This document shows, in pieces, positions 30,880 to 38,373 of a stretch of DNA of 64,000 nucleotides. The first letter of the stretch is position 1. The number at the start of each line of letters is the position of its first letter. The stretch is from positions 1,170,757-1,234,756 of the forward strand of contig NZ_BMQY01000001.1 of the NCBI RefSeq assembly GCF_014648355.1, given 5' to 3'. A program made the position numbers and the translations under genes. This stretch comes from Couchioplanes azureus (GTDB taxonomy: Bacteria > Actinomycetota > Actinomycetes > Mycobacteriales > Micromonosporaceae). The notes below the pieces were generated by a model, which made no database searches, was not told the origin of the DNA, and saw only the letters and a list, made by a program, of their open reading frames with translations.

Positions 30880-31062
30880 GGACGACCGGCGCCCCGGCGA
30901 CGTACAGGCTGTGCGATCTCCGACGGCGGCGAGCGCGATCCCCGCGCGCGAGGCTGGGCTCGGATGTTCACTCACCGCTAACCTTCGGGAACGGAGCGCA
31001 TTTGTCCTTGAGTAAGGCCGGACGGTGTCGATGACTGCGGGGAAGAGGAAGGGGTGAGCTCG

Positions 31063-32667
31063 ATGGAAGCGCGCGTTCGCGACGCCGAACGACTCTCGGC
31101 CGCCCTGACCGAGCTCGAGGATCAATACCGCTGGGACGCCGACGCCACGTACGACGCCGCGACCGCGATCGAGCAGGAGGCGGCCCGCCTCGACGACGAC
31201 CGGCTGGTCATGCGGGCCCGCCTCGTGCAGGCGAACATGCTCATGCGCAAGGGCGAGGTCGCCGGCGCCGCCCGGCGCATCTGGAAGATCCACCAGTGGG
31301 CCACCGAGCACGGCGACCACACCGTGCAGGCCCGTACGCACGTGGTCTGGGCCAACGTCCACCGCTACCTCGGCGACGCCGCCCAGTCGCTGGAGCACTC
31401 GGTGCTCGCCGTCGAGCTGCTCGACGAGACGGCCACCCTGCACATGCAGGTCTGGCACCGCGCGAAGCTCGCCGACGCCCTCGGCGCCTCCGGCTCCATC
31501 GAGGCCGCCCGGCTGCGCTACGCCCAGGCCGAGGAACTCGCGATCGAGTACGACCTGCCCAACCTGCACATGGGCCTGCTCAACAACTACGCCTACACCG
31601 AGTGGGCCGCCGGCGAGCACGCCCGCGCGGGTGCCGTCGCGCGGCGGCTGAAGGACGTCGCCGACCAGCACGGCTTCACCCTGGACCCGGCGACCCTCGA
31701 CACCATCGGCGCCATCGAGATCGAGAACGGCAGGTACGCGGAGGCCGAGGAGACGCTGCGCGAGGCCGTACGCCGCTACCACCAGGGCGGCTTCGAGGAC
31801 GCCGACGCGCTTCCCGAGTTCATGCTCACCCTCGCGCGCGCCCAGCGTTTCCTGGGCGCCACCGCGCGCGCCCAGGTGAGCCTGGACGAGTCGCGCACGC
31901 TCTGCGTCGAGCGCGGTCTCGGCGACGTCCTCGTGCGGGTGCACCAGGAACAGGCCGAGCTGCACGCCGCGCGCGGGGAGTTCGCCGAGGCCTTCGCCGT
32001 ACACAAGATCTTCTTCGCCGCCCACAACGCGCTGCACTCGTCGCAGCGTGAGGCACAGGCCCGCACCCGGCAGGCGATGTTCGAGACGACCGAGGCCCGG
32101 CAGGAAGCGGAGCACTTCCGCGAGCAGGCCCGGCGCGACCCGCTGACCGGCCTGCACAACCGCCGGTACCTCGACGAGCAGCTGCCGGCGCTGGTGAACG
32201 CCGGCGGCGACCTGACCGTGGCGATCGTCGACCTGGACCACTTCAAGCGGGTGAACGACCAGCTGTCCCACGACGTCGGCGACCAGGTGCTCATCCAGGT
32301 CGCCAAGCTGCTGGAGACCGAGCTGGCCGCGGTCGCCCCGGACGGCTTCGTCGCCCGGATGGGCGGCGAGGAGTTCCTCATCGCCATGCCCGGCTTCACC
32401 GCACCGCGCGCCACGGTCCATCTCGACGCCGTCCGGCACACGATCCGGGCGTACGACTGGACCGCCCTCACCGACGGCCTGCCCGTCACGGTCAGCATCG
32501 GCGTCGCCGGCCTGGGCGACCCCGCGGTGCCCACCCAGGCGGCCCTGCTGTCCACAGCGGACCGCAACCTGTACGTCGCCAAGCACGCCGGACGCGACCG
32601 GGTCGTGTCGGGCAAGCCGCGCGACGCCCGCACCAGGTCCTACCGCGACAGTGCCACGGCCGCCTGA
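31063..32667 (+). CDS. TPR-repeat diguanylate cyclase (GGDEF)
   Basis: This 534-residue cytoplasmic protein makes cyclic di-GMP from two GTP. The first 330 residues are helical TPR-type repeats, for example ARLRYAQAEELAIEYDLPNL and GRYAEAEETLREAVRRY. A short coiled coil follows, then the GGDEF domain: RRDPLTGLHNRRYLDEQ, IVDLDHFKRVND with its metal-binding Asp, and MGGEEF with GGEEF at residues 434-438, an active-type signature. No RxxD inhibitory site is present at the expected position upstream of GGEEF, so product inhibition may be absent. The ATG at 31063 is chosen over the GTG at 31054 because AGGAAGGGG gives normal spacing. Signals probably arrive through protein contacts at the TPRs. 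Confidence 0.92.
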   Translation: MEARVRDAERLSAALTELEDQYRWDADATYDAATAIEQEAARLDDDRLVMRARLVQANMLMRKGEVAGAARRIWKIHQWATEHGDHTVQARTHVVWANVHRYLGDAAQSLEHSVLAVELLDETATLHMQVWHRAKLADALGASGSIEAARLRYAQAEELAIEYDLPNLHMGLLNNYAYTEWAAGEHARAGAVARRLKDVADQHGFTLDPATLDTIGAIEIENGRYAEAEETLREAVRRYHQGGFEDADALPEFMLTLARAQRFLGATARAQVSLDESRTLCVERGLGDVLVRVHQEQAELHAARGEFAEAFAVHKIFFAAHNALHSSQREAQARTRQAMFETTEARQEAEHFREQARRDPLTGLHNRRYLDEQLPALVNAGGDLTVAIVDLDHFKRVNDQLSHDVGDQVLIQVAKLLETELAAVAPDGFVARMGGEEFLIAMPGFTAPRATVHLDAVRHTIRAYDWTALTDGLPVTVSIGVAGLGDPAVPTQAALLSTADRNLYVAKHAGRDRVVSGKPRDARTRSYRDSATAA

Positions 32668-32784
32668 CGGTCCACTGCGCTGCGTGACAATCCCCTTCCC
32701 GATGCACGTCCCTTCGAGCGACAGGGCTGAATTCGATCGGCTCCTGGCGCTAGGCTGACCATTGCGGATCTCGTCCCGCGGACG

Positions 32785-32861
32785 GGATCCCCCCGGCCCT
32801 GCCGTGGCCGGGATCCCCCGGCCCTACCGTGGCCGGGATCGGTCCGGCCCCGCAACGGCCG
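32785..32861 (+). repeat. Three tandem 25-26 bp repeats in the leader of the methyltransferase gene
   Basis: Units begin at 32785, 32811 and 32836. The first two share GGATC, a C-run, GGCCCT, one variable base, CCGTGGCCG. The third is diverged (GGATCGGTCCGGCC...). Each unit contains self-complementary GGCC blocks, so the transcript can fold into alternative hairpins. A -10-like TAGGCT at about 32748 places them inside the 5' leader of the 32902 gene. Confidence 0.6.
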
Positions 32862-32901
32862 GAAGACCGGCCAGGGGTGGCCTGATCAGGAGGCGGTCGA
32901 C

Positions 32902-33729
32902 GTGACGCAGGACGGCGAGGCACCGACACCGGCCGAGGTGGCGCCGCCGGGGGTCAACCCCAACGTGCCGCACTCGGCCCGCATCTACGACTACTGGCTG
33001 GGCGGCAAGGACAACTTCGCGGTCGACCGGGCGGTCGGCGAGGCGATGATGAAGGCCATCCCCGGCATGCGCTACATGGCCGGCGAGAACCGCAAGTTCG
33101 TCCACCGCGCGGCCCGCGACCTGGTCGCCAAGGAAGGCATCCGGCAGTTCCTCGACATCGGCACCGGCATTCCGACCCGGCCCAACCTGCACGAGATCGC
33201 CCAGCAGATCGCCCCGGAGACCCGGGTGGTCTACGTGGACAACGACCCGATCGTGCTGGTCCACGCCCGGGCCCTGATGATCAGCAGCGAGGAGGGCCGC
33301 TCCGAGTACATCTCGGCGGACATCCACCAGCCGCAGGACATCCTCACCGACCCGGTCCTGCTGGAGACCCTCGACCTGACCCGGCCGGTGGGCCTCACCC
33401 TGATCGCCATCCTGATGCTGCTGGCGGACGAGGACGACCCGTGGTCGCTGGTGGCGCAGCTCCGCGACGCCATGCCGTCGGGCAGCATTCTGGCCCTCAC
33501 CCACCCGACCGCCGACTTCAACCCGGCCGAGGTCGACCAGGCGGTGGCGGCCGCGACGGGCGCGGGCATGACGCTCGTGCCCCGCACGAAGGAGCAGGTC
33601 GCCCGCTTCTTCGGCGACTGGGAGCTGCTGGAGCCGGGCCTGGTGCCGGTGTCGGGATGGCGGCCCGACAGCCCGGTGGAGAACCCTGAGGCGGCCTACT
33701 ACTGGGCGGGCGTGGCCCGCAAGCCCTGA
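32902..33729 (+). CDS. SAV2177-family S-adenosylmethionine methyltransferase (PF04672)
   Basis: This 275-residue cytoplasmic protein has the family hallmarks. The N-terminal PHSARIYDYWLGGKDNF is followed by RFVHRAARDL-type helices and an SAM-binding loop FLDIGTGIPT. VVYVDNDP supplies the adenosine-site Asp, and the C-terminal block ends AAYYWAGVARK. These proteins are many-copy in Streptomyces and Actinoplanes, and their substrates are unknown. The start is GTG with AGGAGG-like purines (GATCAGGAGG) 9 bp ahead. The long leader with tandem repeats suggests post-initiation control. It is followed by a strong hairpin. Confidence 0.9.
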   Translation: MTQDGEAPTPAEVAPPGVNPNVPHSARIYDYWLGGKDNFAVDRAVGEAMMKAIPGMRYMAGENRKFVHRAARDLVAKEGIRQFLDIGTGIPTRPNLHEIAQQIAPETRVVYVDNDPIVLVHARALMISSEEGRSEYISADIHQPQDILTDPVLLETLDLTRPVGLTLIAILMLLADEDDPWSLVAQLRDAMPSGSILALTHPTADFNPAEVDQAVAAATGAGMTLVPRTKEQVARFFGDWELLEPGLVPVSGWRPDSPVENPEAAYYWAGVARKP

Positions 33730-33748
33730 CAAGTCCGACACTTCGCCG

Positions 33749-33774
33749 GCCCCCGCCGCTCCGGCCGCGGGGGC
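33749..33774 (+). terminator. Hairpin terminator after the methyltransferase
   Basis: GCCCCCGC (33749-33756) pairs perfectly with GCGGGGGC (33767-33774) across a 10-nt loop, starting 20 bp after the stop codon. Confidence 0.65.
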
Positions 33775-34233
33775 GACCGGCTTCCGCTTCCGGCCGGCCC
33801 GGGGCAGCACCCGCTCATGCTCCGGGCACCTCGCGTTCACGGCCGGGCCCCGGGGGCAACACTTCCCGCCCAACGCCGGAATTCATCGCCGGTGCCATCC
33901 GATCCGGTTCGGTTCGGATGCCGGGGCGTTTGCGCCAGCCCGCGTGCGGCTGGCGCCCGAGTCCCTTGAAGACTCGACACACTCCCTGTGGCCAGACCAT
34001 CTTTGCCGGGCATGGGCCGGCTGTGGCCGTCGCTCCCCATTGCCCAGACCGGCCGCTTCAGGTGGAACAGTTCGGCGCGGGCCGCGGAGACATCCGGCCG
34101 GCCGAGCGATCCAGCACGGGGGGACCGGACCGCCCGGCCGGGATCCGGGCAGCGCGCCCCGCATCGGAGCGCGCGACGAGCGGGGCGGCAAAGCCCGCTC
34201 TATCCATATGACGTGGTGAACTGCCGCCGCGGA
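33775..34233. other. Gene-free stretch of about 460 bp
   Basis: No reading frame with ribosome site and actinobacterial codon bias was seen on either strand, and no RNA gene or repeat was recognised. It separates the methyltransferase from the DUF397/XRE cluster. Confidence 0.5.
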
Positions 34234-34467
34234 TCAGCGGGAGTCGTCGCCGGGGCCGGACGGCGGGCTCCCGTCCCTGCGGATCAGCGCGTAGCGGACC
34301 CCGCCGAACCGGTGGCTCACCGTCGTGGCTCGTGTCGTCGCGGCCGCCATGCAGTCCGGGGGCCGTTCGTCGCGGTAGACGAGGGCCGGATTGCCACGGC
34401 GCGGGAGGTCCGCGCCGTCCGGGTCGACGGGGTCGAAGGGCTCGGGGCCGATGTTCGGTACCGCCAT
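34234..34467 (-). CDS. Small hypothetical protein divergent from DUF397 gene
   Basis: This 77-residue protein was not recognised. It starts MAVPNIGPEPFDP, has an acidic Asp/Pro-rich first third and a basic second half with VSHRFGGVRYALIRRDGSPP, and has no membrane segment. The ATG has a clear GGGAGGG ribosome site 7 bp ahead, which is the main evidence that it is real. It is divergent from the DUF397 gene, and the shared gap contains the 53-bp operator-like element. It is therefore probably controlled with that pair. Small acidic partners are common next to XRE/DUF397 genes. Confidence 0.5.
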   Translation of the reverse strand: MAVPNIGPEPFDPVDPDGADLPRRGNPALVYRDERPPDCMAAATTRATTVSHRFGGVRYALIRRDGSPPSGPGDDSR

Positions 34468-34592
34468 GGGATTTCCCTCCCGCTCGGACGCTCCCGCCAG
34501 AGAGCCTTGCGCCGTGGGCCCTGACGGCATTTCCGCCACCGGCCCCGTAGGTGTCACCCTCCGTAACCCGAACTGCTGTGGGGTACGTGCGT

Positions 34593-34645
34593 TATCATGC
34601 TCACAATCACGTGAGAACGCAAGGCCGAATGCACGTGCATCTGCA
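34593..34645 (+). promoter_or_regulatory. 53-bp promoter/operator element, copy 1 (DUF397 side)
   Basis: It contains a -10-like TATCAT (34593-34598) and, further down, a perfect palindrome ATGCACGTGCAT inside a 17-bp block CCGAATGCACGTGCATC. The same element, 45 of 53 bases identical and ungapped, lies on the other strand at 36031-36083 upstream of the XRE gene. The palindrome would sit about 20-30 bp downstream of the transcription start, where a bound repressor blocks RNA polymerase. Confidence 0.75.
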
Positions 34646-34711
34646 CAGCAGGTAGCCGGCGTGACACACACTGCCGGTCCCGTACCGGTCTCACCGTTAG
34701 GGAGCAGGACA

Positions 34712-34948
34712 ATGACGCGCATTTTCAACGGTATGCCCGCCGGGCAGCTGCAGGGCGTGACCTGGCGAAAGAGCGGCCGCAGCAACCCCAGCGGCAACTG
34801 CGTGGAGTGCGCCACGCTGCCGGACGGGAGCATCGCGATGCGAAACTCCCGCGACCCCGAGGGCCCCGCCCTCATCTACACGCCGGCCGAGATCGAGGCG
34901 TTCCTCGGCGGCGTCCGCGACGGAGACTTCGACCACCTGCTCGGGTGA
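34712..34948 (+). CDS. DUF397 domain protein
   Basis: This 78-residue cytoplasmic protein has the full DUF397 pattern: GVTWRKSGRSNPSGNCVECATL, then IAMRNSRDPEGPALIYT and a final EIEAFLGGVRDGDFDHLL. DUF397 proteins are small partners of XRE/DUF5753 regulators in actinobacteria, including those controlling differentiation (WhiJ/AbaA-like loci). Here the partner regulator is convergent, 68 bp away. The ATG has GGGAGCAGGA as ribosome site. Its promoter carries the same palindrome element as that of the regulator, so the two are probably co-regulated. Confidence 0.92.
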   Translation: MTRIFNGMPAGQLQGVTWRKSGRSNPSGNCVECATLPDGSIAMRNSRDPEGPALIYTPAEIEAFLGGVRDGDFDHLLG

Positions 34949-35016
34949 ATCGTTTCCGCCTTCCGGGTGACGCCCGGAAGAACTAGCTACACAGAGTGAA
35001 GAACCGGACCCGCAGC

Positions 35017-35907
35017 TCAGCCGAGCCGGCCGACCTCGTGCAACAGCTTGCCGAGGATGTCCGGGGTGTGGTTCGGCGGCTCGGCGTCGATGCACACGCG
35101 CTCCATGGCGATCGCGTAGTGGTCGACGTCGTCCCGCTTGTCCAGGTAGATGGCGCTGGTGAGCTGCTCGACGAAGACCACGTCGGGCAGCTCCGGCTCC
35201 GGGAACCGCAGGATCGCGAACGGTCCGCCCGCCGCGGCGTGCCCGCCCGCGTGGAACGGGATGATCTGCAGCCGTACGTTGGGCCGCTTCGACGCCTCGA
35301 TGAGCGCCTCGATCTGCCCGCGCATGACGTCCACCCCGCCGATCGGCCGGCGCAGCACCGCCTCGTCGATGACCGCCCACAGCTGCGGCGGGTCGGCGCG
35401 GTCGAGCACCTGCTGGCGCTGGCGGCGCAGCTCCACCCGGCGGTCGATCTCGGCGGGCGTGGCGCCCGCGTGCCCGAGCATGATCACGGCTCGTGCGTAC
35501 TCCGGCGTCTGGAGCAGGCCCGGGACGAACTGGATCTCGTACGTCCGGATCAGCGTCGCGGCCGCCTCGAGGCCGAGGTACGACTGGAACCACGACGGCA
35601 TGATGTCCCCGTAGTGGTGCCACCAGCCGGGGTTGTTCGCCTGCCGGGCCAGGCCGAGCAGCGCCTCGCGCTCCGCGGGGTCGTCCACGCCGTAGAGGCT
35701 GAGCAGGTCGGCGACGTCGCGCTCCTTGAAGCTCACCCGGCCGAGCTCCATGCGGCTGATCTTCGAGCCGGAAGCGCGGATCTCGTAGCCGGCGTCCTCG
35801 CGGGTGATGCCCTTGGTCTCGCGGAGCCGGCGGAGCTGGGCGCCGAGCAAGATGCGCAGCACGGTGGGGCCGCTGTTCGGCGCCTCCTCCTGCGAACCCG
35901 TGCTCAC
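35017..35907 (-). CDS. XRE-family regulator with DUF5753 domain
   Basis: This 296-residue DNA-binding regulator has a helix-turn-helix in residues about 15-75: LRRLRETKGITREDAGYEIRAS, then SKISRMELGRVSFK. The C-terminal DUF5753 domain (about 100-290) includes the typical YEIQFVPGLLQTPEYARAV and VRLQIIPFHAGGHAA blocks. This type typically works with a DUF397 protein, found next door in convergent orientation. The start is placed at GTG 35905-35907 because AGGAG lies just upstream; an in-frame TTG further out lacks support. It probably binds the palindrome ATGCACGTGCAT present in its own promoter region and that of DUF397. Confidence 0.92.
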   Translation of the reverse strand: MSTGSQEEAPNSGPTVLRILLGAQLRRLRETKGITREDAGYEIRASGSKISRMELGRVSFKERDVADLLSLYGVDDPAEREALLGLARQANNPGWWHHYGDIMPSWFQSYLGLEAAATLIRTYEIQFVPGLLQTPEYARAVIMLGHAGATPAEIDRRVELRRQRQQVLDRADPPQLWAVIDEAVLRRPIGGVDVMRGQIEALIEASKRPNVRLQIIPFHAGGHAAAGGPFAILRFPEPELPDVVFVEQLTSAIYLDKRDDVDHYAIAMERVCIDAEPPNHTPDILGKLLHEVGRLG

Positions 35908-35937
35908 GTCACTCCTGTCCCGATTCGTTCCGGAAAT

Positions 35938-35950
35938 CTGCAAGTTGCAG
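35938..35950. promoter_or_regulatory. Perfect 13-bp palindrome in the XRE leader
   Basis: CTGCAA-G-TTGCAG lies about 30 bp upstream of the XRE start codon and downstream of the 53-bp element. It could be a second operator or a small RNA hairpin in the leader. It has no copy on the DUF397 side. Confidence 0.4.
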
Positions 35951-36030
35951 ATTCATCGCCATGCGCATCCTACGGGCGAGGTCGCCGCGCCGAAAACCGC
36001 ACGTTCGGCCCCGCGGGCCGAGACGCACGT

Positions 36031-36083
36031 TGCGGATGCACGTGCATTCGGCCTTGCGAACGCACTTGATCCCGAGCATGATA
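36031..36083 (-). promoter_or_regulatory. 53-bp promoter/operator element, copy 2 (XRE side)
   Basis: Read on the minus strand, it starts with TATCAT (-10-like) and contains the identical 17-bp CCGAATGCACGTGCATC block. It matches the copy at 34593-34645 at 45 of 53 positions. It lies about 125 bp upstream of the XRE start and in the divergent gap shared with the radical-SAM operon (first gene at 36213). Confidence 0.75.
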
Positions 36084-36212
36084 TCTGACAGGCGGTCGCT
36101 TCGCCGCTGACACAGCGTGTTGAAAAGTATGTCCTTTTCGACTGTCAGGGGCAGGGCGACGCCGAGGGACGCCCCGACGATCGAGTCATTTCCGGGACCC
36201 AGGAGGCTCTCG

Positions 36213-36539
36213 ATGTCGACTCCGACCATCGCGCCACCGCACCGAGACCCGGCGGACGTGGCCCCCGCCGACAGCTACCACAAGGCCGACCCGGTCTGGG
36301 TCTACCGCGACGGGTGGCGCGCGGGCGTCATCGAGGCCGCGTCGCCGCTGGCGGTCACCGTCACCTACCGGCCGGGCACCCACGTCGGGACCGGCGTGGA
36401 CACCTTCACCGCCTCGTACGTGACGTACCGCGCCGACGCGGATCCCGCCCTGGACAACCGCCAGGAGAACGCCCTCGCCCACCGCCGCCCCCGCCCCAGC
36501 GGAGACGGCGCGACCGTGCCGAGCGGCCCGCCCCGATGA
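36213..36539 (+). CDS. Small SH3-like hypothetical protein, first gene of radical-SAM operon
   Basis: This 108-residue cytoplasmic protein has a central strand-rich core: DPVWVYRDGWRAGVIEAA, then AVTVTYRP and DTFTASYVTYR (about residues 27-72). It resembles a small SH3/Tudor-like barrel. The N- and C-terminal tails are Pro/Arg-rich. No precise family name can be given. The start is decided by a perfect AGGAGG (36201-36206) 6 bp before the ATG. Its stop overlaps the next start (ATGA), so it is co-translated with the zinc-ribbon protein. A divergent promoter region with an operator element lies upstream. Confidence 0.7.
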   Translation: MSTPTIAPPHRDPADVAPADSYHKADPVWVYRDGWRAGVIEAASPLAVTVTYRPGTHVGTGVDTFTASYVTYRADADPALDNRQENALAHRRPRPSGDGATVPSGPPR

Positions 36540-36739
36540 CCGGGGCGATAACCCTCTCCGCGCTCGTGGGACTCGCCAGCCTGCTCGCCGGGGTGGCACT
36601 GGGCTGGTATCTGCGCCGTACCAACGACTGGTGTCCACACTGCGGCGAGCAGCTCGCCTGCGACGCCTGCGGCAGCAAGGCCGCCTGGCCCCGCCGCCGC
36701 GAACCCGAGCTCAGCCTCGACAGAAGCTGGGGTCCGTAG
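36536..36739 (+). CDS. Small membrane protein with zinc-ribbon-like CxxC pairs
   Basis: This 67-residue protein has one N-terminal transmembrane helix (about residues 4-25, ALVGLASLLAGVALGWYL). It is followed by a cytoplasmic WCPHCGEQLACDACGSK with two CxxC pairs that can bind one zinc. The tail is basic then acidic. It overlaps the preceding gene by 4 bp and precedes the radical-SAM gene by 30 bp. The Cys pairs could equally be modification targets in a radical-SAM context, but there is no direct evidence. No family was recognised. Confidence 0.6.
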   Translation: MTGAITLSALVGLASLLAGVALGWYLRRTNDWCPHCGEQLACDACGSKAAWPRRREPELSLDRSWGP

Positions 36740-36769
36740 GCAGTTCGCGAGGTAGGGCAGACTTGACGG

Positions 36770-37903
36770 GTGCAGGCCTTCCGCGAGTTCGTCCTGAAGG
36801 TGCACCAGCGGTGCAATCTCGCCTGCGACTACTGCTACGTCTACGAGCTCGCCGACCAGAGCTGGCGTGACCGACCCGCAGCGATGGACCGTACCGTATG
36901 GCAGGCGGCCGCTCGCCGCATCGCGGCACACGCGCGCGCCCACGATCTGCCGGCCGTCGACATCGTCCTGCACGGCGGCGAACCGCTGCTGGCCGGACAG
37001 TCCGCCCTGGTCACCCTGATCACCGACGTCCGGGCCGCGGTGCCGGGCGCCCGGTTCAGCACGCAGACCAACGGTGCCCTGCTCGACGCGCCGATGCTGG
37101 CCGCGCTCGGCGCCCACGGAGTGCGCATCGGCGTCAGCCTCGACGGCCCGCCCGAGCACCACGACCGGCACCGCAGGCACCGCGACGGCCGGGGCAGTCA
37201 CCTGCTCGCCGCCCGGGCGCTGCGACTGCTCGCCGGGCATCCGTCGTACGCGGGAATCCTCTGCACGATCGATCCCGCGACCGACCCGGTGGCCGTCTAC
37301 GAGTCCCTGCTGACCTACCACCCGCCCGCGATCGACCTGCTGCTGCCGCACGCCAACTGGGCGAATCCGCCCGGCCCCGGCTACGCGCAATGGCTGATCG
37401 CCGTCTTCGACCGCTGGTACGACGCCCCGCGGCGGGAGACCGGCATCCGCCTCTTCGAGGAGCTGATCAGCCTCGTGCTCGGCGGCCCGAGCCGCTCCGA
37501 CCAGGTCGGCCTGAGCCCGGTGGGGGTCGCGGTGATCGAGTCCGACGGCACGATCGAACAGGGCGACTCGCTGAAGTCCGCGTACCCGGGCGCGGCGGCC
37601 ACCGGCCTCACCGTCTTCGACCACGACCTCGACGCGGCCGCCCGCCACCCGGGCATCGTCGCGCGCCAGTCGGGACGGGCCGCGCTGGCCGAATCCTGCC
37701 TGGCGTGCCCGGTCCACGACATCTGCGGCGGCGGGCACTACGCCCATCGCTGGCGGCCGGGCGGCGGCTTCCGCAACCCGTCGGTCTACTGCGCGCAGCT
37801 GCGCCGGCTCATCGACCACATCGGCGCCCGGGTGGCCGCGGACCTCGCCACCCGCTCCGCCGGGCGGGCGACCGCGGACCTCGCAGGGGGTGTTCGGCCA
37901 TGA
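36770..37903 (+). CDS. FxsB-type radical SAM/SPASM protein
   Basis: This 377-residue iron-sulfur enzyme is likely to modify a peptide. The N-terminal FREFVLKVHQRCNLACDYCY holds the CxxxCxxC cluster at C15, C19 and C22. The next part, VLHGGEPLLAG, and the C-terminal SPASM region CLACPVHDICGGG with a later NPSVYC (auxiliary cluster) match FxsB, the maturase of FxSxx-COOH peptides. The distinctive FxsB stretch LLLPHANWANPP and the SLDGPPEHHDRHRR block are also present. No peptide ending in F-x-S-x-x is found nearby, so the substrate is unclear. The GTG start has only a weak GAGG site. Its stop overlaps the start of the EVE-like gene (ATGA). Confidence 0.88.
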   Translation: MQAFREFVLKVHQRCNLACDYCYVYELADQSWRDRPAAMDRTVWQAAARRIAAHARAHDLPAVDIVLHGGEPLLAGQSALVTLITDVRAAVPGARFSTQTNGALLDAPMLAALGAHGVRIGVSLDGPPEHHDRHRRHRDGRGSHLLAARALRLLAGHPSYAGILCTIDPATDPVAVYESLLTYHPPAIDLLLPHANWANPPGPGYAQWLIAVFDRWYDAPRRETGIRLFEELISLVLGGPSRSDQVGLSPVGVAVIESDGTIEQGDSLKSAYPGAAATGLTVFDHDLDAAARHPGIVARQSGRAALAESCLACPVHDICGGGHYAHRWRPGGGFRNPSVYCAQLRRLIDHIGARVAADLATRSAGRATADLAGGVRP

Positions 37904-38373
37904 CCACGTTCGTACTGATCTGGGACGGAAGCGACACCGGATATCCGCCGGCCAACCACCGGGCCGACATAGCGGCCACGGCCGCGGGCGAGACGGTCCG
38001 GGGCCGGTGGAGCTCCGGCTCCCGCAGATCGGGTACGGCGCCCGGCGACCGCGTCTACCTGCTGCGCCAGCGGACGAGCCGGGGCATCGTCGCCAGCGGG
38101 CGCCTCACCGACGGCATCATCGTCCCGGGCCCGCACTGGACCGGCGACCCCAGGCGGGCCACCCACTACCTCGAGGTGTGCTGGGACCGCGTCCTGCCGG
38201 TCGCCGACCGCCTGCCGCTCGACGACCTGCGCCACGAGGTGCCGGGGCACGACTGGAACCACATCTTCGCCTCCGGCCAGCGGGTGCGGCCGCCCTCCGA
38301 CGCGGCGCTGGACCGGGTGTGGGCCCGCCACCTGCGCGACGTCGACGACCTCAGCGCCAGCGGTCGCCGGTGA
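37900..38373 (+). CDS. EVE/PUA-like domain protein
   Basis: This 157-residue protein resembles the N-terminal EVE/PUA-like domain found in many actinobacterial HNH endonucleases: VLIWDGSDTGYPPA, RWSSGSRRSGTAPGDRVYLLRQ, then GIVASGRLTDG and a final helix. EVE-type domains bind modified bases in DNA or RNA. There is no HNH part here, so it is a stand-alone reader. It is translationally coupled to the radical-SAM gene (4-bp overlap), an unusual pairing. Its last 23 bp overlap the convergent purC. Modified-base binding is inferred from the fold only. Confidence 0.6.
   Translation: MTTFVLIWDGSDTGYPPANHRADIAATAAGETVRGRWSSGSRRSGTAPGDRVYLLRQRTSRGIVASGRLTDGIIVPGPHWTGDPRRATHYLEVCWDRVLPVADRLPLDDLRHEVPGHDWNHIFASGQRVRPPSDAALDRVWARHLRDVDDLSASGRR

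Follow-up and report, generated by a model that had tools for sequence, protein, structure and literature searches.

In a 64,000-nucleotide stretch of the Couchioplanes azureus genome (NZ_BMQY01000001.1, positions 1,170,757 to 1,234,756; hereafter the window, from whose first letter all coordinates are counted), a 53-base-pair (bp) element occurs twice, in inverted orientation, around a gene pair encoding an XRE/DUF5753 regulator and a DUF397 protein. Each copy combines a palindrome with a promoter-like sequence, the two copies face paralogous small genes, and the palindrome is shared by a clade of XRE/DUF397 pairs. We think it probable that the locus works locally, as an XRE/DUF397 regulatory cassette having two outputs, with a regulator that likely activates the divergent promoters. 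A radical SAM gene of the FxsB family lying downstream is an accessory. Little is known of the DNA sites and direct targets of most of the many XRE/DUF397 pairs that filamentous actinobacteria carry. In the clade described here, the candidate operator is conserved and sharply delimited, its spacing to the predicted promoter is fixed, and the same few kinds of neighbor recur (GGDEF proteins, SH3-like small proteins, and HATPases), which makes the targets of these pairs directly testable.

The duplicated element and the genes it faces

The locus reads, in order, a 77-residue gene (minus strand), the first element copy, DUF397 (plus), XRE (minus), the second copy, and genes for a 108-residue protein, a 67-residue protein, FxsB, and a 157-residue protein (all plus). 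The two copies, op1 (34593–34645) and op2 (36031–36083), are identical at 45 of 53 positions in an ungapped inverted alignment, which bears out what an earlier note on this DNA had described, except that the longest stretch without a mismatch measures 24 bp rather than 17 bp. Both copies have the layout ATGCACGTGCAT, 6 bp, TTGCGW, 17 bp, CATGAT, which looks like a palindrome directly upstream of a promoter and not like a mere palindrome. The palindrome lies at 34629–34640 in op1, where a third TGCA follows in a 6-bp register, and at 36036–36047 in op2. By inspection of the letters, we assigned a predicted promoter to the 77-residue gene (34594–34622, minus strand; −35 TTGCGT at 34622–34617, 17-bp spacer, −10 CATGAT at 34599–34594), another to the downstream genes (36054–36082, plus strand; −35 TTGCGA at 36054–36059, 17-bp spacer, −10 CATGAT at 36077–36082), and a −10 TAGGAT to XRE (35967–35972, minus strand), ∼65 bp from the op2 palindrome. 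The palindrome is centered near −47 of the promoter that it would serve, the −35 of which is poor. In 14 aligned loci with two-element cassettes, copy 1 has the exact palindrome, TTGCG, and CATGAT in every case (14/14 each), while in copy 2 the palindrome is exact in 9 and carries one mismatch in 5, TTGCG is found in 14, and the −10 is CATGAT in 12 and GATGAT in 2. The XRE −10 is TAGGAT in 13 of these loci and TAAGAT in one.

The genes facing the two copies encode paralogs, a relationship that had escaped the earlier note, as had the promoter-like nature of the element and its orientation toward the 77-residue gene and the operon. The 77-residue gene faced by op1 (P77; 34234–34467, minus strand) and the 108-residue gene faced by op2 (P108; 36213–36539, plus strand), which is the first gene of the downstream group, matched each other by tblastn in most loci examined, with 31 to 43% identity and an alignment that starts at the first residues; P77 in particular matched P108 at 36 to 42%. 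A joint profile of both proteins had three matches in the genome: the two genes themselves and, elsewhere on a different contig, a weaker match (E = 9.7e-9). These findings indicate that a promoter-plus-gene unit is present twice at the locus, and the element would be duplicated because it is part of that unit. The 77-residue protein has no Pfam or NCBIfam match. An AlphaFold2 model of the 108-residue protein (mean pLDDT 68.9, pTM 0.55, block means of 73 to 91 over residues 21–70) suggests, with modest confidence and with the fold named by eye, a five-strand, SH3-like small barrel. Foldseek returned weak matches for this model (best E = 0.016, ribosomal L21e-type chains and NdhS), which indicate no function.

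Within the 7.61-Mb genome, exact ATGCACGTGCAT occurs at three places, compared to none for the reversed control. These are op1, op2, and a site within a long open frame (L003), which we rejected as a regulon member because of that position; similar sequence recurs in L085, L097, and, reversed, L091. The L003 stretch itself (L003:1483–1560) is coding-like, reads approximately GTGGCTCICSGG with the palindrome inside it, recurs in several genomes of the genus, and by eye resembles a cysteine/threonine-rich peptide. The composite pattern TGCACGTGCA-N5-9-TTGC has four matches in the genome: op1, op2, a paralogous XRE locus, and one coding-like frame. Since its reversed control gives three, the number of composite matches is unremarkable, and their location is the striking part. 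Judged by full matches to this composite pattern, the switch appears to be local. At the paralogous XRE locus (L223, contig C4), the same kind of site faces an 83-residue open frame. XRE paralogs with near-identical palindromes on both sides were also seen in L223, L230, and L157, the downstream one facing a small open frame in L223 (83 residues) and L157 (107 residues).

A different perfect palindrome, AATCTGCAAGTTGCAGATT (19 bp, 35935–35953), lies between the XRE −10 and the XRE start codon. We considered it as a general XRE operator and rejected it, its 13-bp core being exact in only 3 of 18 cassette loci (window, L004, and L005); it has one mismatch in L302 and L303 and no match in 13, one of which, L304, is too short to be judged. 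It thus appears to be specific to a sub-clade and distinct from the shared operator. The exact core is confined to the three cassettes in which the radical SAM gene is at least 81% identical.

The palindrome in relatives of the XRE/DUF397 pair

The XRE gene (35017–35907, minus strand) encodes a protein matching DUF5753 (206.6 bits, E = 3.1e-61) and HTH_31 (61.5 bits) and belongs to the Sco1979 family NF058600 (431.8 bits, with a cut-off of 350), a model that also takes in several paralogs per genome. As its start we prefer the GTG at 35907 to an upstream TTG at 35943; the AGGAG and GTG of this start are conserved in most of the 14 aligned loci. The BldB-like DUF397 gene (34712–34948, plus strand; 78 residues, PF04149, E = 5.1e-21) adjoins XRE, as in WhiJ/BldB-type modules, and the two are convergent here. 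The identities that had been given to these two genes and to the radical SAM gene hold.

To follow the palindrome, we used 161 loci (L113–L142 and L163–L293), kept the 156 in which the XRE alignment was long and the XRE sequence distinct, and accepted a match with at most one mismatch anywhere within the locus. Loci L222–L293 were hand-picked from XRE match lists, and the palindrome was already known in some of those genomes. Occurrence follows identity to the window XRE: 15/15 at 80% or more, 28/31 at 70 to 80%, 56/76 at 60 to 70%, 4/10 at 55 to 60%, and 0/24 below 55%, this last group consisting entirely of family f20. At 60% or more, the palindrome is therefore found in 99 of 122 loci (58/63 tool-picked, 41/59 hand-picked), while 179 control palindromes with permuted half-sites and the same composition were found on average in 0.64 of the 122, with a maximum of 8. 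When loci with at least 55% identity were sorted by arrangement, the palindrome was present in 63/69 where a same-strand DUF397 precedes XRE, in 19/21 convergent pairs, in 2/3 and 7/9 of two rarer arrangements, and in 12/30 without a detected DUF397. On a quick tree, the site label needs 15 changes versus 44.5 in shuffles, none of the 500 being as low, and site-bearing XRE members span families f1, f3, f9, f18, f19, f20, and f21 of the class. In a scan of 150 genomes, the exact palindrome occurs in 85 and the reversed control in 13; among the scan matches listed, 29 family loci (L084–L112) have an XRE match in 20 and none in 9. The palindrome, a candidate operator, belongs to this XRE/DUF397 clade.

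The promoter-like part of the element recurs too. In 36 of the 63 loci where DUF397 lies upstream of XRE, a promoter-like match is found on the side opposite DUF397, with exact 6- and 17-bp spacing in 33, while the DUF397 side has 0/63 by the same test, and shuffled flanks give 0.07 matches on average (maximum 1). Relative to the first TGCA of the palindrome, further TGCA motifs occur at offsets of −18 (37/63), −12 (26/63), +12 (4/63), and +18 (16/63). We tried and abandoned a fixed spacing of 24 bp between operators, since secondary matches are enriched at 12, 18, 24, 36, 42, 48, and 54 bp and also at 32 and 38 bp, according to z-scores that combine related loci and two-site loci; a 6-bp register suits most of these offsets, not all. 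The first divergent gene at the 63 loci is GGDEF-like in 27, like the 108-residue gene in 12, HATPase-like in 9, of an unnamed family in 4, and unmatched by our queries in 11; for GGDEF and for HATPase, a single example was checked and borne out by Pfam. The GGDEF protein beside XRE/DUF397 pairs in L208, L209, L211, and others is small with a membrane-like N terminus, and a palindrome and promoter facing such a gene would be a possible tie of these pairs to cyclic di-GMP (c-di-GMP).

The radical SAM gene as an accessory

Downstream of op2, P108 is followed on the plus strand by the 67-residue gene (P67; 36536–36739), the FxsB-family radical SAM/SPASM gene (36770–37903; TIGR04269, 438.9 bits, cut-off 370), which is the single match above cut-off in this genome, and the 157-residue gene (37900–38373). 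With a 4-nucleotide overlap, a 30-nucleotide gap, and a 4-nucleotide overlap between them, the four genes plausibly form an operon, the 30-nucleotide gap suggesting that FxsB is cotranscribed with P67. The conserved targets of the element appear to be P77 on one side and P108/P67 on the other. The 67-residue protein has a membrane-like segment and CxxC pairs, with weak zinc-ribbon matches below cut-off, and its gene is retained in cassettes without radical SAM. We considered a radical-SAM-specific tail in this protein and dropped it, similar KAAWP tails being present in L302 and L303, which have no radical SAM gene.

The earlier note had read the whole region as one regulated unit tied to the radical SAM operon. 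The first part stands insofar as the element goes with the XRE/DUF397 pair and marks an apparently coregulated unit; the radical SAM tie is unsupported, since by the criterion of the note itself the pair is usually found apart from FxsB. Among 17 two-operator cassettes (L145 duplicates L004, and the two enter as one; L304, which begins at the XRE gene, was excluded), FxsB is present in 4, namely the window, Pseudosporangium (L004), Nucisporomicrobium (L005), and Mangrovihabitans (L014), the last with a radical SAM gene of just 62% identity. The other 13 are without FxsB, an absence that is less sure in L153, where the flank extends just ∼1.4 kb past P67. Seen from the other side, an XRE/DUF397 cassette is found at 3 of 80 FxsB loci (80 kept of 177 found); of the 77 without it, L029, L039, and L053 have less than 1.4 kb upstream and are unjudgeable. 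FxsB is thus an accessory to the cassette, and the tie is confined to a few genomes.

No strict FxSxx-COOH frame (F.S..*) lies beside the window FxsB on the same strand from 1,500 bp upstream to 200 bp downstream of its start, which says little, since this insensitive search finds a frame in just 10 of 81 FxsB loci. Relaxed FxSxx forms are present, by eye, among the first 32 FxsB loci and absent from the window. The 157-residue gene adjoins the radical SAM gene also in L005 (69%) and partly in L004, and no homolog was found in L014; its product has no Pfam, NCBIfam, or PDB sequence match and was matched in 6 of 197 genomes, its own included. Gene content varies between 36740–38373 and the same interval in L144, L146, L154, L155, and L302, with FxsB in four genomes, and by eye the interval between P67 and the purC-like gene elsewhere holds HxlR-like, nitroreductase-like, and LysR-like genes. 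One flank of the window locus encodes an S-adenosyl methyltransferase (PF04672) together with a TPR-GGDEF protein; on the other is a gene that we take to be purC. No HATPase, an AbaA-like partner that is common but not universal, was found among the nine genes scanned from 31054 to 38373.

Mode of action and comparison with known systems

In the cassette as we picture it, the XRE/DUF5753 protein would bind the TGCA-rich ATGCACGTGCAT in both divergent gaps and, once bound, would most likely stimulate the adjacent weak TTGCGW-17-CATGAT putative promoters, one serving P77 and the other P108 and P67. XRE would also limit its own or DUF397 expression, and the DUF397 protein may modulate XRE via protein contact. 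FxsB and the 157-residue gene would be later additions downstream of the conserved P108/P67 unit, presumably cotranscribed with it. In the closest case studied by experiment, the WhiJ-type regulator WhiJ9 of Streptomyces venezuelae is described as binding repeats that lie between it and a small divergent gene, iosA, for whose strong activation it is required, and its loss raises its own transcription ∼two-fold; the DUF397 protein BldB shows no DNA binding, and loss of BldB switches the target on (PMC10294661).

The earlier note had named XRE the natural repressor. As a pure repressor, XRE at op1 and op2 would silence four transcripts until a signal or DUF397 removed it. Such a repressor would account equally for the tie between the site and the XRE clade; most XRE regulators are described as controlling their own genes (PMC12565409); and in L102–L107 the palindrome is followed directly by a TAGGCT-like sequence toward DUF397, where binding would block a promoter. 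At op1 and op2, however, the palindrome does not overlie the −35 of the promoter it would serve but ends 6 bp before it, and exactly that distance recurs in 33/63 sites in relatives; its ∼65-bp distance from the XRE −10 and the activation by WhiJ9 of its divergent target (PMC10294661) also speak against pure repression, which we regard as rather unlikely. With the palindrome at about −47 and the −35 being poor, activation fits better than blocking, and we prefer, with moderate confidence, an activator that limits its own expression. Alternatively, another regulator might bind the palindrome, XRE and DUF397 being mere targets. The orphan XREs discussed below, with identical HTH residues and no local site, would suit this, but site presence tracks both the XRE clade and DUF397 presence, and three of the four composite matches in the genome are at XRE loci, making it improbable. 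In yet another reading, the pair would be a type II toxin-antitoxin system with an autoregulatory operator and bystander neighbors; a toxin-antitoxin role has been proposed for DUF397/HTH pairs (PMC7159879 and PMC10364602). Overexpressed S. coelicolor DUF397 proteins are, however, described as without clear toxic effect (PMC10364602), and the conserved promoter-like part points away from DUF397, so that we give this role very little credence.

Several points weigh against an activating XRE acting through its local site. A palindrome upstream of the −35 can serve a repressor too; the kind of promoter match that was tested is missing at 27 of the 63 sites; and L274, L275, L285, and L286 (family f20) have a −10-like TATGAT on the DUF397 side. 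The site is missing from 23 of 122 loci at 60% identity or more, and a position limit of 320 bp upstream of XRE or DUF397 lowers the count at 55% or more from 103/132 to 95/132. Since the loci are interrelated, these counts are not independent. A group of orphan XREs that belongs to those 23 loci, with one member in this genome (L222), lacks DUF397 and the site in 8/8, and yet their helix-turn-helix (HTH) residues equal those of site-bearing members at the compared positions; these orphans either weigh against a simple rule or act on sites in trans. The HTH comparison, itself weak, separates the clade from SCO1979-type XREs, not from the orphans. Finally, because the WhiJ9 repeats differ (CGxxCTCAAC), WhiJ9 is a precedent for the logic, not for the site.

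A broader and more tentative picture, which we doubt holds as a whole, is that of a class-wide XRE/DUF397 two-way switch, where XRE dimers on TGCA repeats in a 6-bp register would activate a weak divergent promoter and limit the pair. The output would be GGDEF in 27/63 loci; here it would have been duplicated as SH3-barrel-like proteins, with FxsB recruited to act on one of these proteins in place of an FxSxx peptide. As an analogy only, such a switch resembles lambda repressor at the right operator. If true, a GGDEF diguanylate cyclase output would tie WhiJ/BldB-like pairs to c-di-GMP.

Among known systems, SCO1979/SCO1978 of S. coelicolor shares the NCBIfam model NF058600 above cut-off, and SCO1979 reportedly binds the region upstream of its own gene (as cited in PMC12565409 and PMC10364602). 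Unlike at the window, DUF397 follows XRE on the same strand there, and the 24 of 24 top NF058600 loci less than 55% identical to the window XRE are without ATGCACGTGCAT. Upstream of SCO1979-type XREs we noticed ACACTTGGCAAGTGT in 10 of these 24 loci (L115, L116, L118, L120, L122, L124, L126, L128, L129, and L130), a candidate operator of that sister clade. The window radical SAM enzyme, being above the TIGR04269 cut-off, resembles those of FxsA/FxsB cyclophane peptide systems but is encoded downstream of two small genes that are linked to an XRE/DUF397 pair. The view that such pairs have no described link to peptide maturases, which the earlier note stated for radical SAM maturases, needs softening, since two groups of graspetide clusters may have DUF397 and DUF5753 genes with them, where an XRE/DUF397 pair would likewise lie near peptide-maturation genes; these are groups 11 and 13, not FxsB, and the available part of that account mentions no operator (PMC13097080). 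In literature that left most subscription journals outside the search, we found no account of this operator or of a DUF397–GGDEF or DUF397–FxsB link. For WhiJ9-BldB9-iosA, the part of the report available mentions neither a second operator nor radical SAM, and its sites, 113 bp ahead of the iosA start, are direct repeats, unlike the palindrome described here; what it shares with the window cassette is a WhiJ-type XRE, a DUF397 partner, and a site facing a divergent small gene (PMC10294661).

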